5,039 nucleotides of DNA from an uncultured Spirochaetaceae bacterium (GTDB taxonomy: Bacteria > Spirochaetota > Spirochaetia > Treponematales > Treponemataceae), in NCBI GenBank assembly GCA_902766345.1, contig CACXDK010000218.1, forward strand, positions 1 to 5,039, given 5' to 3'. Of the stretch, positions 1 through 5,039 are shown piece by piece. The stretch's first letter is position 1, and each line of letters opens with the position of its first letter. The notes under the pieces are model-generated. The model was given only the letters and a program-made list of their open reading frames with translations. It ran no database searches and was not told the origin of the DNA. Position numbers and translations under genes: made by a program.

Positions 1-975
1 AAGTTTTGCGTTGTAAAACTGCTCAGCATCTTTTTTTTTTTTTTTTTTTGCGGCTTCCTCATTATAAACTGCGTTTGTAGTCCAATATTTAAAGCAGGTC
101 TGAAGTCGAGTAGGGTCTTCGCCTAAAAATGTTTTAAGCGATTCTGCAGGAAGTTCGTAGCCTACATCACGCTGTTCACAGCGATACACAGGATTCGACA
201 TGAAGCCGTCTTGTCCTGAAATGTCTTTAGGTGTGTCGTTGTCGCGGCCAAATACAACAAGGGCATTTTTAGTGCGTGCAGGTGTGAATATTCCTGTATC
301 GCACTGCTTTTCGGCAAACATAATTGAACGTGCGTCAATAATAGTGTAGTTGACACCGTAAGAATGAAGCACCTTATCAATGCCTTTTGCCCAGCCCATG
401 TATGGCAGGAAAAAGCCATCGCCAGTTTCGCCAAAGAAAGTTTTATGAGCAAAAAGCCCTGTTTCTACCTGTGCATTCAAGATTTCTTTTAAGTCTTCAT
501 AATGCGGCATGTAGATGTTTGTTGCAGCCGTAGGAATGAGTTCCAAAAGTCCCTTGTCTGCAAAACGACGGAAAGCCTTTACAAGATTGCTGTTGTAAGT
601 TTTCATAAAGTCAATCTTGTCTTTCTGGAGCTTTTTCAGACACAGCTGAACATTCTTTAATATATCAGGATTGTCTTTGTTGCGTTCAAGTTCTACATCT
701 CCAAAAGCAATTCTTTTATCAAGCCATGCAATATACTGCTGCTGAGTGTGTGCGTCTGATAAAAGAGTACACAGCGAAGGATTAAGTACCATGCCAAGCT
801 TAACGGCAATTCCTTCTTCTTCAAGCTTTGCAAGGAGATTTAGAAGTGGTATGTATGTGTTTGAAATTGATGTGAAAAGATATTCATTGCCAAAAGAAAA
901 ATCAATATCTGATTTTGAATTGTGGATATAACCTTGTTCCGTTGCTAAAACCAATAATAAATTCTTTTTTGACAT
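1..975 (-). CDS. GH57-family (DUF1957-like) protein, probably catalytically inactive; 3' end cut by window
   Basis: 325 codons are visible from the ATG at 973-975; the stop lies beyond base 1. The family is recognised from the ordered pattern of GH57 alpha-glucan branching enzymes: a short N-terminal strand (LLLVL, residues 6-10), LELIPTAAT (about 144-152), FLPYMGWAKGID (188-199) followed by SYGVNYTIID, then VVFGRD, NPVYRCEQRDVGYELP and a KYW segment near residue 300. Family members normally read HAH in the first motif, ATHG in the second and LPE(C) in the third, where Glu is the nucleophile. Here these are ATE (11-13), ATN (N153) and LPY (Y192). The acid/base Asp motif would lie past the window edge. 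A purine-rich ribosome site (AAGGGAAGAG, 980-989) precedes the start, 17 bases after the DUF4912 stop, so the two genes are probably co-transcribed. Fold assignment is firm; loss of hydrolase or branching activity is inferred from the missing residues. A glucan-binding or regulatory role is possible but not shown. Confidence 0.85.
   Translation of the reverse strand, partial: MSKKNLLLVLATEQGYIHNSKSDIDFSFGNEYLFTSISNTYIPLLNLLAKLEEEGIAVKLGMVLNPSLCTLLSDAHTQQQYIAWLDKRIAFGDVELERNKDNPDILKNVQLCLKKLQKDKIDFMKTYNSNLVKAFRRFADKGLLELIPTAATNIYMPHYEDLKEILNAQVETGLFAHKTFFGETGDGFFLPYMGWAKGIDKVLHSYGVNYTIIDARSIMFAEKQCDTGIFTPARTKNALVVFGRDNDTPKDISGQDGFMSNPVYRCEQRDVGYELPAESLKTFLGEDPTRLQTCFKYWTTNAVYNEEAAKKKKKKDAEQFYNAKL
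31..49 (-). repeat. A19 homopolymer tract inside the GH57-like gene
   Basis: Nineteen consecutive T on the plus strand read as A19 in the coding strand. They supply the last base of an Ala codon and six Lys codons (AAKKKKKKD). The frame after it (DAEQFYNAKL) still resembles the helix expected at this place in the family, so the sequenced length is probably the in-frame length. Gain of one A, or loss of two, would bring a TGA in frame at 23-25 within three codons; loss of one A gives another frame that stays open to the window edge. Tracts this long are typical slippage sites, but sequencing or assembly error in the run is also possible. Confidence 0.9.
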
Positions 976-992
976 TAAACTCTTCCCTTTTT

Positions 993-1673
993 CTAATAAT
1001 GTAATGATTCTCTATGTGTTAAATAGTATTCCCTCAATAATTCTTCCATGCCCGAAAGCCGTACCAATGGCGGAACATCAAGCCTTCTACCAGGCTGTAA
1101 GTCTGCAAGCTGTGGACAGAAATTTGGAATTGTAATCATTTCTGTATGTGCAATGATACGGTGACTTGTGCCGTTATTAACAGCAAGATTTACAATAAAG
1201 TGCTTTCTTGCAGAAGAAAGAAGCACATACTGCATTCTGTCTTCAAGCGAAATCTTTGTATCTATTGTATCTACAGGTTTTTCGTCAGTTTCATTTTCAT
1301 AAAATGCAACATGAAGCAAAAGATTCTTAAAGTTCTGATTACTTCTAAGGTTTTCAAGCTCGGATGCACTAATGTCCCAGAATACAAAAACCCAGGCAGG
1401 ATCGTGAATAATGGCATGAATAGAAGTTTCATTGTATGACGTAGGAAGATTAGGATTAATATTCATTTCTTCGTCAGTAAGGTTTACTTCTGGCACTACT
1501 GGCTGGTCTTCCTGTTCATCTGAAAATTCAAGAAGTTCTTCAATAATAAAACGTCTGTTTAAATCTTCAGGAATGTCAATTCCAAAATCGTCAGATAAGT
1601 CTAGTAAATCCTGTGTTGAAAGAGATTCAAGCTGCTGACGTGAAAGAATTTGTGTTTCCATATCCATTTTCAT
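993..1673 (-). CDS. DUF4912 domain protein with N-terminal SAP/Rho-N-like segment
   Basis: 226 residues from the ATG at 1671-1673. The DUF4912 core begins near LPTSYNETS (76-84) and has the family hallmark of an Asp-Pro followed by aromatic residues: HDPAW (90-94) then FVFWDIS (96-102). A predicted beta-rich stretch follows to the ITIPN region near residue 180. The N-terminus (about 10-50, with STQDLLDLSDDFGIDIPEDL, then a charged helix) resembles the short SAP/Rho-N helix-turn-helix segments found before some DUF4912 domains; residues 51-75 are an acidic linker. DUF4912 genes are commonly found beside GH57 genes, as here, which suggests a role in alpha-glucan metabolism or sensing, but the biochemical function is unknown. 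No Shine-Dalgarno is visible before the ATG, and Met3 or Met5 could be used instead. The protein has no signal peptide or membrane segment, so it is probably cytoplasmic. Confidence 0.85.
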   Translation of the reverse strand: MKMDMETQILSRQQLESLSTQDLLDLSDDFGIDIPEDLNRRFIIEELLEFSDEQEDQPVVPEVNLTDEEMNINPNLPTSYNETSIHAIIHDPAWVFVFWDISASELENLRSNQNFKNLLLHVAFYENETDEKPVDTIDTKISLEDRMQYVLLSSARKHFIVNLAVNNGTSHRIIAHTEMITIPNFCPQLADLQPGRRLDVPPLVRLSGMEELLREYYLTHRESLHY

Positions 1674-1760: not shown

Positions 1761-2786
1761 TTAATATTTTATAAACCTGTCGTCAGGCTGTTTTATAAAA
1801 TAGTCCAAAATGCGTTCTTTGCTTTCCTCTACAGACTTAGCATTGAGCATCTGAGTTTGAAAATAGTGCCCAAACGTGAAATTCTGGCAGTAATAGGCAA
1901 AAAAACGCTGTAAGCGGGTCTTGTAAAATTCTGGTGGCTGATATTTCATTACATCATCTATAAATTCCAAAGCCAAAGCCTGACAGTCCACGGTTGTTTT
2001 GGTGTCATCGCAGGCAACGCTGGCATTGCCAACATCGCTTTCACCAGAAAGCCCTTTTTTTATTTCACTGAAAATCCAAGGCTTTTGAGCCGCCATTCTT
2101 GCAATCATAAGTCCTGCACATGACGGAGCTTTGGAAAGTGCGTATTTTGCACTTGCAGTGTCTTTAATTTCTCCATTGAGAATTATTGGAACAGAAACCC
2201 GCTCAGCAAGCTTTTGAGCATAGTCATATTTTGGAAGTCCTCGGTATTTTTCCTTTATTGTACGCGGATGAAGGGTAATAAGCTCAACTCCTTCTTCCAA
2301 AAGCATGTCTGTAAATGCAAAGAACGAGTTTTCTGTAAAATCTTCCGCACCAAGCCTGCACTTTACACTAAGCCTTACATGGCGGTTTTCTTTAGAGCCG
2401 TATTCATCCAAGGCCTGTTTTACAAGACGTACAAGGTTTCTTGTTTCGTCCAAAGGCTTAAGCATCCATGCAATGCCTGCTCCTGTTTTGTATATCTGCG
2501 GAGCGGAACAGCCCATGTTTAAGTCAATGCCTATTCCTCCCTGACTTGCTGCTACAACGCTTGCTTCCGCCATGGACTGGGCATTGTTGCCTGTAATTTG
2601 CCATACAATTTTTTCGGGGCATGGTCCGCTCATAAGGTAATACTTTTCAAACGGCCCCATGTTCAAAAGGGATGTGGCATTAATCATTTCTGTAAAGTAT
2701 TCATCACAGCCACCAAACTTTTCTATTGCATGGCGGAAAGCTTCGTGACTCAGGGTTGCCATTGGTGCGCAGATTAAGCGTGTCAT
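1761..2786 (-). CDS. tRNA-dihydrouridine synthase (Dus family)
   Basis: 341 residues. Dus enzymes are FMN proteins that reduce specific uridines of tRNA to dihydrouridine with NAD(P)H. Visible marks in order: APMATLSHEAFR (7-18, FMN-binding start of the TIM barrel), WQITGNN (62-68), DLNMGCSAPQIYKTGAG (88-104) with the catalytic Cys at 93 and Lys at 100, VKCRLG (141-146, FMN-contact Lys142), LHPRT (172-176, His173), ILNGEI (202-207), and LMIARMAAQKPWIF (225-238), the phosphate-binding end of the barrel. The remaining hundred residues fit the C-terminal helical tRNA-binding domain. Some consensus positions differ: PMAG is PMAT, GCP is GCS, GR is AR. The Dus subtype cannot be assigned, so no symbol is given. 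The ATG overlaps the stop of the upstream gene (ATGA, 2783-2786), implying translational coupling. Confidence 0.92.
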   Translation of the reverse strand: MTRLICAPMATLSHEAFRHAIEKFGGCDEYFTEMINATSLLNMGPFEKYYLMSGPCPEKIVWQITGNNAQSMAEASVVAASQGGIGIDLNMGCSAPQIYKTGAGIAWMLKPLDETRNLVRLVKQALDEYGSKENRHVRLSVKCRLGAEDFTENSFFAFTDMLLEEGVELITLHPRTIKEKYRGLPKYDYAQKLAERVSVPIILNGEIKDTASAKYALSKAPSCAGLMIARMAAQKPWIFSEIKKGLSGESDVGNASVACDDTKTTVDCQALALEFIDDVMKYQPPEFYKTRLQRFFAYYCQNFTFGHYFQTQMLNAKSVEESKERILDYFIKQPDDRFIKY

Positions 2787-3280
2787 TTTTCTATGCCGTT
2801 TTCGTTAAGGTAGCTCTGGAAAATTTCTGCCGCACATGCACACAGCTTAGGGCAGGGGCGTTTTTTATAGTATTCTTCCGTGCGTGCTTCTGAAACTGGC
2901 GATGTTGACGCAGCAGCGTCTGCAACTTCTTTTATTGGAACAAGCCCTAAAAGCTCTTTGCAGATAATGCTTCCGTTAAGTTTTGTAAAGCGTGCGGCAA
3001 GCTCCTGACCATGAGCGTAAATGTTGTCTTTTGCTTTTTTGTCAGAAGGGTTATTACTTCCTTCAAGCAGACCAAGTGAAAGAAACATTCCGGATACTGT
3101 GCCGCAAGTTTCCCTTAAACGGCACATACCACCGCCAAAAGGCTGAGAAATCCTCATTGCTTCCTGCTCGCTAAGACCGAGCCTTTCGGCAAATGTGCAG
3201 AACACAGCCTGTGCACAGTTGTATCCCTTCTTGAAATTTTCTTCTGCAATTAAGCCTGCTTTTTCAGGTGTCATGCTCAT
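2783..3280 (-). CDS. C_GCAxxG_C_C family cysteine-rich protein (putative redox protein)
   Basis: 165 residues from the ATG at 3278-3280. The family pattern is clear: GYNCAQAV (19-26) near the start, PFGGGMCRLRETCGTVSGMF (47-66) with Cys53 and Cys59, CKELLG (107-112), and a C-terminal RPCPKLC (141-147) with Cys143 and Cys147. Members are small soluble proteins, common in anaerobes, annotated as putative redox-active or metal-binding; no reaction is established. The gene overlaps the ATPase stop upstream by ATGA (3277-3280) and the dus start downstream by ATGA (2783-2786). Sitting between an Fe-S carrier and a flavoenzyme, it may take part in cluster or electron transfer, which is inference. 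Met3 (3272-3274) is a credible alternative start, because the AAAGAG ribosome site is only one base from the first ATG. Confidence 0.88.
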   Translation of the reverse strand: MSMTPEKAGLIAEENFKKGYNCAQAVFCTFAERLGLSEQEAMRISQPFGGGMCRLRETCGTVSGMFLSLGLLEGSNNPSDKKAKDNIYAHGQELAARFTKLNGSIICKELLGLVPIKEVADAAASTSPVSEARTEEYYKKRPCPKLCACAAEIFQSYLNENGIEK

Positions 3281-4143
3281 ACTCTTTTTATGAGGGATTC
3301 CACAGCCTCGGCTGCTTCGTTTACATAAGGAACATCAAGAGTTTCTATTTCGCCATTGTCCACTGCAACAGACATGTTCTGTTCTATAGGAATGCGAGAA
3401 AGCACTTTAAGACCAAAATCCTTGGCAATGCCATCAATATTGTTTTCGCCAAAGATTCTCATTTCCTTTCCGCAGTCTGGGCATTTTACATAGCTCATGT
3501 TTTCTACCAGTCCCAAAATAGGAACGTTCATCATGTTTGCCATGTTTACAGCCTTTTCTACAATTACACGTACAAGCTGCTGTGGAGAAGCAACTACTAT
3601 AATGCCGTCAATTGGAATTGACTGGAACACTGTAAGTGGAACGTCACCTGTTCCAGGAGGGCAGTCAACTAGCATAAAGTCAACGTTTTCCCATACTACG
3701 TCTGTCCAAAACTGTCTTACTGCACCAGAAATTACAGGACCACGCCAGATTACAGGATCGGTTGCATTTGGCAGAAGGAAGTTCATAGACATAATCTGAA
3801 CGCCGTTCTTGCTCTTTACGGCTTTGAGGAAATCTTCCTGCTTTCCTTCTTCATTTGTAAGGCTTCCTGCTTCTGCTTTTTCGCCTTCAAGACCATAGGC
3901 TGTAGGAATTGAAGGACCTGTAATGTCTGCGTCAAGAATGGCTGTATTGTAACCGTCTTTATGAATCTTAGAAGCTAAAAGGCTTGTAACCATAGATTTT
4001 CCTACACCGCCTTTTCCGCTAACAACAGCTATTACTTTTTTTACAGATGAAAGCTTATGAAGCTTTTCATGCAAGTCTCTTTTTTCGCATCCGTCTTTAG
4101 AACAACCTGAACAGTTGCCGCTGCAGTTTGAATTTTCTGCCAT
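3277..4143 (-). CDS. mrp: Mrp/NBP35 (ApbC) family iron-sulfur cluster carrier ATPase
   Basis: 288 residues. This P-loop ATPase family binds and transfers Fe-S clusters to apoproteins in the cytoplasm, usually as a dimer with a bridging cluster. Visible marks: deviant Walker A GKGGVGKS (43-50), LDADITGPS (70-78, Walker A'), VDCPPGTGD (159-167, switch II/Walker B), and a CPDC motif (221-224), the expected cluster-bridging CxxC. The N-terminus has four cysteines, C7-x3-C11-x2-C14-x4-C19, resembling the extra N-terminal cluster site of NBP35-like members from anaerobes. The open frame extends to an ATG at 4212, but the 23 extra residues are hydrophobic and non-conserved, and a GAGG ribosome site lies five bases before the ATG at 4143, so that start is chosen. 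It is the first gene of a coupled operon with the C_GCAxxG_C_C and dus genes. The protein also resembles MinD/ParA, but the CPDC and PPGTGD motifs favour Mrp. Confidence 0.93.
   Translation of the reverse strand: MAENSNCSGNCSGCSKDGCEKRDLHEKLHKLSSVKKVIAVVSGKGGVGKSMVTSLLASKIHKDGYNTAILDADITGPSIPTAYGLEGEKAEAGSLTNEEGKQEDFLKAVKSKNGVQIMSMNFLLPNATDPVIWRGPVISGAVRQFWTDVVWENVDFMLVDCPPGTGDVPLTVFQSIPIDGIIVVASPQQLVRVIVEKAVNMANMMNVPILGLVENMSYVKCPDCGKEMRIFGENNIDGIAKDFGLKVLSRIPIEQNMSVAVDNGEIETLDVPYVNEAAEAVESLIKRV
3282..3287 (-). promoter_or_regulatory. Ribosome site that favours Met3 of the C_GCAxxG_C_C protein
   Basis: AAAGAG on the minus strand ends one base before the ATG at 3280 but seven bases before the next in-frame ATG at 3274. 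Spacing favours the second ATG, making a 163-residue protein. Re-initiation at the ATGA overlap would favour the first. The site alone does not settle it. Confidence 0.4.
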
Positions 4144-4148
4144 AGTAT

Positions 4149-4152
4149 CCTC
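4149..4152 (-). promoter_or_regulatory. GAGG ribosome site fixing the mrp start
   Basis: GAGG on the minus strand is followed by ATACT and the ATG at 4143, a five-base spacing. No comparable site precedes the ATG at 4212, and the candidate promoter -10 lies downstream of that ATG. Confidence 0.75.
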
Positions 4153-4183
4153 GATGATTATTATAATATGGTATGTTTTCAAT

Positions 4184-4212
4184 AATATACTGAAATTACA
4201 GTAAATAGGCAA
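4184..4212 (-). promoter_or_regulatory. Candidate promoter of the mrp operon
   Basis: TTGCCT (4212-4207, four of six consensus bases) and TATATT (4189-4184, five of six) are 17 bases apart on the minus strand. A start near 4177 would give a leader of about 34 bases containing the GAGG site. The region is AT-rich, with another TATAAT at 4165-4160 that lacks a good -35, so the exact promoter is uncertain. Confidence 0.4.
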
Positions 4213-4227: not shown

Positions 4228-5039
4228 TCAATAATCCTGTTCAAGTGGAGTTCCGTAGAATGCACTTTCTCCGATGAATTCAATGCCTTGCGGTAAGTTT
4301 ACAGTCTGTAGATTTTCGCAGTAATAAAATGCAAAATCTCCTATGCTTTTTACTTCTTGCGGAAGGTCAATTCTTTCCAAAGAGGTACAGTCGCCGCAGC
4401 AACATTCGGGAATTTCCTGTAGGCATGCAGGAAAATGAATTCTTTTAAGCTTTGCGCATCCACTAACAATTCCCTGCGGAAGACTTTTAATGTTGTCGTC
4501 AAAGTCAATTTCTTCTAGGGAAGGGCAGTCTGAAAAAGCAGATTCTCCTAGTTCCGTTACCGTATCAGGAACTATAAACTGTGTTACATGTTTGTTAAAT
4601 GCAAGGGCATGGTGGCATATTTCCCTGACGTTGCCAGGAATGCGTATTGTACCGCTCAAAGAAGATTCCTGTAGATTTTCTATAACTGTTACAGGCAAAT
4701 CATTTATGTACGATGGAATTTGTGTAAAGCTGGAATTCTTTTTGCTTCCAGTGATGTGAACCTGTCCATTTTTGATAATATATTTTATGCCGTCCTCGGT
4801 AACTTTTGTGAACGTAAAAAAGAATCGGTTTTGCTTTTTCTTTATGAAAATAAAGAATGTAATTCCGATTATAATTTCTATTAAGACCACCCCTGTTGCA
4901 CAAAGGATTCCAATATCAATAACTGTTCCAAACACTGTGATAGTCTTTCCACTAAATTCATAATAAAGGACACTCGGTATTTTAAAAGGTAAGGTTATCA
5001 GAATAATACCTAAAACAGCAAGAAAGACTTCCTTTGGAA
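4228..5039 (-). CDS. Membrane-anchored BspA-type leucine-rich-repeat protein; 5' end cut by window
   Basis: 269 residues are visible, counting from the first full codon (5035-5037). The frame has no stop up to the edge and no ATG in its first part. A GTG at 4933-4935 lies inside continuous coding sequence, between two hydrophobic segments, so it is unlikely to be the start. Residues about 3-21 and 37-65 are hydrophobic segments, the second ending in KKK, fitting two membrane helices with the rest cytoplasmic by the positive-inside rule. From residue 129 to the end run six 23-residue repeats with the LRR_5/BspA pattern (I-x-x-aromatic-P-x-x-V-x-x-I-G-x-x-A-F-x-x-C-x-x-L), preceded by a partial unit with IPSYINDLPVTVI. 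BspA-type LRR proteins mediate binding or scaffolding, often at the cell surface in oral and gut bacteria. The short array and N-terminal anchor here make a classical secreted adhesin less likely. Its partner is unknown. Confidence 0.8.
   Translation of the reverse strand, partial: PKEVFLAVLGIILITLPFKIPSVLYYEFSGKTITVFGTVIDIGILCATGVVLIEIIIGITFFIFIKKKQNRFFFTFTKVTEDGIKYIIKNGQVHITGSKKNSSFTQIPSYINDLPVTVIENLQESSLSGTIRIPGNVREICHHALAFNKHVTQFIVPDTVTELGESAFSDCPSLEEIDFDDNIKSLPQGIVSGCAKLKRIHFPACLQEIPECCCGDCTSLERIDLPQEVKSIGDFAFYYCENLQTVNLPQGIEFIGESAFYGTPLEQDY
4231..4653 (-). repeat. Six tandem 23-residue LRR_5 units
   Basis: Protein-level repeats in register every 69 bases: units begin GTIRIP, TQFIVP, EEIDFD, KRIHFP, ERIDLP and QTVNLP. 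The first five are exactly 23 residues; the last runs three residues on, to the C-terminus (EQDY). Unit 4 has three cysteines in a row plus a fourth (ECCCGDC) where the others carry Ala-Phe. DNA identity between units is low, so this is an old repeat, not a recent duplication. Confidence 0.85.

Follow-up and report, generated by a model that had tools for sequence, protein, structure and literature searches.

The left end of a 5,039-nucleotide stretch of DNA from an uncultured Spirochaetaceae bacterium (assembly GCA_902766345.1, contig CACXDK010000218.1; hereafter the window) encodes residues 1-325 of a protein of about 524 residues belonging to glycoside hydrolase family GH57. The gene is orthologous to the GH57 glycogen-branching enzyme of spirochaetes, and in the treponemes its product probably performs a different, non-enzymatic job. 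We favour, with some reservation, the reading that it is a retired branching enzyme, a non-enzyme across the treponemes that is not engaged in glucan sensing and that serves as a structural (binding) subunit, forming a module of two proteins with the DUF4912 product of the adjacent gene.

A branching-enzyme homologue without its catalytic residues

The open reading frame (ORF; positions 1..975, minus strand) starts with ATG, stays open over 325 codons and extends past the left edge of the window. It matches the Pfam family GH57 (PF03065; 4.2e-15), and its closest relatives in the PDB are GH57 branching enzymes, with AmyC of T. maritima at the top (2b5d; 2.3e-36, residues 6-301). A full-length relative, P0001 (524 amino acids, 98% identical to the window protein), contains the branching-enzyme C-terminal domain PF09210 besides PF03065, and thus combines the GH57 barrel with PF09210 as expected for a member of the branching enzymes. 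Only six residues differ between the two proteins, four of them within a run of 19 T at positions 31..49, where the window protein reads KKKK and P0001 reads TEQA; this run lies near the window edge and keeps the frame, and it may be an assembly or sequencing artefact. The treponeme protein shares its whole-length fold and the domain order PF03065 plus PF09210 with the GH57 glycogen branching enzymes AmyC (2b5d), T. thermophilus TT1467 (1ufa/3p0b) and T. kodakarensis TK1436 (3n8t), showing 26% identity to AmyC across 505 structurally aligned residues, and according to the predicted structure the barrel has been retained.

In contrast to these enzymes, however, the HxH motif, the ATH histidine, the nucleophile and the aromatic residues of the glucan groove are replaced in the treponeme protein, as is the acid/base residue in P0001. 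Aligned with AmyC, the window protein has A11 (943..945) for His10 and E13 (937..939) for His12 of HxH, N153 (517..519) for His146 of ATH, and, evident from both the alignment and the sequence, Y192 (400..402) for the nucleophile Glu185, all encoded on the minus strand. These are the three changes that an earlier note on this DNA had pointed out, and the comparison with AmyC bears them out. His10 is the polarizer of the acid/base according to Table 1 of PMC6616209, and the roles of the other AmyC residues, H146 excepted, were likewise taken from that paper. The acid/base Asp (AmyC D349) falls outside the window; P0001 has P347 at this position, where MAFFT sets the Pro against the Asp and HMMER put a gap close by. 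Among the 18 close relatives P0001-P0018, the nucleophile position is occupied by Y in 16, F in one and C in one, none of them keeping Glu, and the acid/base position by P in all 18. Because the close relatives share these residues, a sequencing error at the nucleophile is ruled out. No other Glu that could replace the nucleophile was seen in the sequence alignments; the structural match gave no residue pairs.

Proteins of this kind are already known. A group of "alpha-glucan branching enzyme-like" GH57 proteins with missing catalytic residues, comprising 60 bacterial sequences, is described by Martinovicova and Janecek 2018 (PMC6037648), and the treponeme protein, with recognisable GH57 regions and one or both catalytic residues gone, fits the description of this group.

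Loss of the active site across the treponemes

The losses recur across the clade, a comparison that the earlier note had suggested: the first His of HxH and the ATH histidine are lost almost everywhere, the nucleophile and the acid/base each in more than half of the rows. We aligned 297 proteins: AmyC, the window protein, 213 homologues of at least 480 residues from two database searches, and 82 genome loci drawn from the family and the class of the genome of locus L001, with finer taxonomy read from the tree. The searches were seeded with the window protein and P0116, and the counts below describe a non-random sample. Left out before alignment were four duplicate loci, six proteins of less than 480 residues, and ORFs of less than 400 residues, namely L061, L062 and the second fragment of both L056 and L102. 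The treponeme clade comprises 244 rows (the window, the 213 proteins and 30 genome loci); the 53 outside rows consist of AmyC and 52 loci of the class draw, 28 of which come from the 30 best BE_C scores, so that this set leans to intact enzymes. In a tree computed without the five motif columns, 243 rows including all family-drawn loci but one form the treponeme clade with support 1.0, and the last one, L112, joins at 0.22.

H10 is retained in a single clade row (1/244; L102, a broken gene) and the ATH histidine in 4/244, H12 in 108/244, the nucleophile E in 102/244 and the acid/base D in 97, the window lacking a letter there. E and D occur together in 55/244 clade rows, neither is present in 99, and no row has all five motif residues; outside the clade, all five are found in 38/53 rows and E with D in 46/53. 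Among the 30 genome rows of the clade, 14 have E, 11 have D, eight have both and 13 have neither. The nucleophile column of the clade holds ten different residues (E, Y, F, A, H, S, C, D, N, M) and is, judged by the alignment, the picture of a site freed from constraint. Parsimony on the whole tree requires 14 changes for E and 31 for D, reversals and alignment noise included. We infer that H10 and the ATH histidine disappeared early, close to the root of the clade, and that E and D decayed repeatedly afterwards.

Most of the residues that hold the glucan have disappeared as well. Of the groove residues that Table 1 of PMC6616209 gives for AmyC and related enzymes, two with a replacement inside the window are the aromatic gatekeeper Trp29, for which the alignment shows Y32 (880..882, minus strand), and Phe261, for which it shows E267 (175..177, minus strand). 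In P0001 the tryptophans W29, W356, W402 and W411 are replaced by Y32, E354, C400 and L409, of which only Y32 lies within the window. W29 is found in 7/243 treponeme rows compared with 53/53 outside, W356 in 0/242 compared with 46/53, W402 in 2/241 compared with 52/53, and W411 in 0/242 compared with 52/53; the corresponding counts are 1/243 and 43/53 for F261, 1/242 and 42/52 for F466, 41/242 and 52/52 for D463, 83/242 and 50/52 for S462, and 105/243 and 50/53 for R237. None of the four tryptophans is left in 235/243 treponeme rows, seven rows have one and one row has two, whereas 45/53 outside rows have all four. Overall, 119 columns are conserved in at least 90% of the outside rows, 11 of them active-site columns; most treponemes keep the residue in 0/11 active-site columns versus 66/108 others (Fisher p 7e-5, a guide only given the kinship of the rows). 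W29, W356, W411, D463 and F466 are all missing in the 55 clade rows with both E and D. A groove stripped in this way argues against a glucan sensor, and also against much activity even in those rows that still have E and D.

This bears on the possibility that the protein is still an enzyme, performing new or residual chemistry with other residues of the same pocket, which we regard as improbable. In its favour are the rows with both E and D, the near-invariance of the polar residues E95, D270, R290, E357 and E506 in the clade, and 23 positions that are fixed in treponemes and present in at most 35% of the outside rows. However, those polar residues are equally conserved in the outside rows and may be structural, and a nucleophile position that varies freely is unlike a reused catalytic site.

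The gene is maintained by selection

The treponeme GH57-like gene is under purifying selection. The ratio of nonsynonymous to synonymous substitution rates (dN/dS) is 0.04-0.15 in eight treponeme pairs, some of which share members. For the window and L001, pN is 0.118 and pS 0.806, with dS saturated as in the window pairs in general. The gene is a single open frame in 29/30 clade rows from genomes, the exception being genome G021, in which it is split across two frames (L102). Of the treponeme genomes surveyed, this is also the sole one in which a match to GH13 branching enzyme exceeds the cut-off, and it has stops inside its other GH57 gene (L015). The split gene could be taken as a sign that the family is a decaying relic, or else the losses might be a sequencing or assembly artefact. 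Both are very improbable, and the data on selection and distribution already contradict them: the low dN/dS, the open frames, the similar substitutions in many relatives, and the retention of the gene in a genome of 1.14 Mb. The earlier view of a maintained pseudoenzyme, as opposed to a decaying gene, is thus supported. It had also relied on conserved non-catalytic stretches, and here the picture is mixed: the Tyr of YR and the Asp of DVGYELP (Y264 and D270) are near-invariant in the clade, but R244 of VVFGRD, which corresponds to AmyC R237, is an R in only 105/243 treponeme rows (50/53 outside).

Glycogen genes and the second GH57 gene

The dead barrel might act as a glucan sensor or as a scaffold for glycogen, binding glycogen or maltodextrin and tuning glycogen synthase or phosphorylase. 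It has the fold of a branching enzyme, and both target enzymes are widespread: among 61 hand-picked genomes (36 of the treponeme family and 25 outside), glycogen synthase (PF08323) is matched in 35/36 treponeme genomes and 24/25 outside, phosphorylase (PF00343) in 34/36 and 24/25. Some of these matches are weak, namely four outside phosphorylases of less than 90 bits, one outside synthase of 34 bits (G364) and one synthase of 121 bits (G001). The debranching enzyme GlgX is represented by two ORFs of 720 amino acids (766 and 738 bits), one of which adjoins a phosphorylase gene (L143). Against such a role stand the loss of the groove aromatics and the genome G023, a single contig of 1,139,633 bases (G+C 53-54% in two stretches), in which glycogen synthase, phosphorylase and GH13 branching enzyme all went without a match. 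G023 nevertheless retains the DUF4912-GH57 pair (L111), with PF16258, PF03065 and PF09210 above cut-off, E present and Pro at the acid/base position, and in addition a second GH57 gene (L010). The glucan sensor proposed in the earlier note is therefore disfavoured, and in our estimate a sensor or glycogen scaffold is about as improbable as a surviving enzyme, if not slightly more so.

The same note had considered that the protein might partner an active branching enzyme allosterically. Matches to GH13 branching enzyme pass the TIGR01515 cut-off in 1/36 treponeme genomes (G021) and 0/25 outside; this cut-off (464 bits) is passed by 4/14 control genomes and does not cover all GH13 branching enzymes. 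The best match in the other treponemes has 68 bits, and two outside genomes (G288, G319) have matches of 205-225 bits, under the cut-off. PF03065 is matched in 239/245 genomes of the family, mostly twice in each, and the second gene is a homologue of 4-alpha-glucanotransferase, with PF03065 and PF09095 in the two proteins scanned. The nucleophile Glu of this gene product is also lost in 29/33 distinct treponeme loci (kept in L013, L014, L025 and L034), and outside the family it is kept in 9/13 loci (lost in L119, L121, L123 and L126). For this count six second copies from counted genomes were removed by hand, and L015 and L131, the broken gene of G021, were left out for want of a nucleophile residue. 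The second gene fits the "4-alpha-glucanotransferase-like" group described in PMC6037648, a subfamily separate from that of the window gene. A second GH57 gene, which the earlier note had asked for, is thus present, but as an intact partner it is not supported, and the idea of an allosteric partner finds little room; a branching enzyme of unknown type may still be the partner despite both points. Those treponemes that have glycogen synthase appear to be without an intact branching enzyme of any known kind.

The DUF4912 partner and the gene neighbourhood

In the loci tested, the GH57-like gene has a constant neighbour. In the window, a run of genes on the minus strand closes with one for a DUF4912 protein of 226 amino acids (993..1673) and, after a gap of 17 bases, the GH57 ORF. 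A DUF4912 gene is located directly upstream of the GH57 gene in 54/54 testable loci, the pairing persisting also where the neighbourhood differs. The DUF4912 protein is modelled as a helical N-terminal region followed by a fibronectin-III/immunoglobulin (Ig)-like sandwich (residues 82-183), and fibronectin-III and other Ig-like chains make up most of the best 50 rows obtained with this model in Foldseek and in VIA-align. No starch-binding fold is prominent among these best 50 rows, which does not prove its absence; the likeness to fibronectin-III and Ig-like domains is neutral with regard to glucan binding.

We therefore return to the retired branching enzyme as a binding subunit. An ancestral GH57 glycogen-branching enzyme would have become a non-enzyme in treponemes, and the GH57-like and DUF4912 proteins would form a physical module in which the barrel and the C-terminal helices act as a protein-binding surface. 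The non-catalytic role would probably be older than the loss, the ancestral protein having combined it with its enzymatic role, and a job that was already there would explain why the gene was not discarded together with its catalysis. Among the suggestions of the earlier note, a scaffold is thus the one that we prefer, with DUF4912 as the likely partner.

Several points weigh against this interpretation. The complex of the two proteins is one that we infer, and their constant adjacency may reflect mere co-expression. A DUF4912 match occurs in 3/14 control genomes (B. subtilis, S. elongatus, T. maritima), the 58 genomes of this survey being hand-picked. Glycogen synthase is matched in nearly all surveyed treponeme genomes, and outside G023 the job may be glycogen-related. 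In the clade members that hold both E and D there may be weak catalysis, and partial loss is not unique to treponemes, since E or D is missing in 7/53 rows outside the clade.

Going further, DUF4912 and GH57 might constitute an old spirochaetal module with a non-glycogen job predating the loss of catalysis, possibly in envelope or division biology. In non-treponeme spirochaetes the DUF4912 gene accompanies a mostly intact GH57 enzyme, and at 17/24 loci the pair immediately precedes MraZ and/or MraW, which belong to the cell-division and wall cluster. Treponemes would then have dropped the chemistry and the glucan groove and kept the module, even in the reduced genome without detected synthase and phosphorylase. 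We offer this as a tentative extension that is less likely to be right than wrong.

Other neighbours were noted in passing. Outside the clade, a divergently oriented gene of about 770-830 amino acids adjoins the DUF4912-GH57 pair in 9/24 loci (L070, L075, L080, L081, L084, L086, L087, L107, L109); the sole one scanned, that of L080, encodes another GH57 protein, with a DUF3536 domain. Further upstream in the window, positions 1761-4212 encode a tRNA dihydrouridine synthase (Dus), a C_GCAxxG_C_C redox protein and a Mrp/NUBPL-type ATPase, and the Dus-like and ATPase genes have the same order in L001-L003. A BspA-type leucine-rich-repeat protein is encoded at positions 4228-5037; by inspection, its N-terminus has a hydrophobic stretch.

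Relation to previous work and significance

The main text of PMC6037648 does not name Treponema, and its passages on the branching-enzyme-like group mention neither a partner gene nor a test of selection, and they assign no function. In a 2024 review (PMC11046441) the terms pseudoenzyme, spirochaet and Treponema are absent from the first 300,000 of 445,374 characters. Titles and abstracts of the open-licence literature on GH57 proteins without catalytic residues, treponeme GH57 proteins, DUF4912 (a cotton transcriptome), treponeme glycogen and glycoside hydrolase pseudoenzymes contain no description of the treponeme protein; likewise, we found none there of the stripped groove, the fixed DUF4912 partner or the persistence without detected synthase and phosphorylase.

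In the treponeme family, the change from glycoside hydrolase to non-enzyme can be followed in a natural and well-sampled example: there is a mostly intact sister group, there are members in which the two catalytic residues, just one or none survive, and the partner gene is fixed. The database name "1,4-alpha-glucan branching protein" carried by some relatives is probably wrong for the clade. With a glycogen synthase and no known intact branching enzyme, the glucan of treponemes would either be unbranched or have its branches made by an unrecognised enzyme. If DUF4912 and GH57 do form an old module, the pair would represent a conserved non-enzymatic complex.
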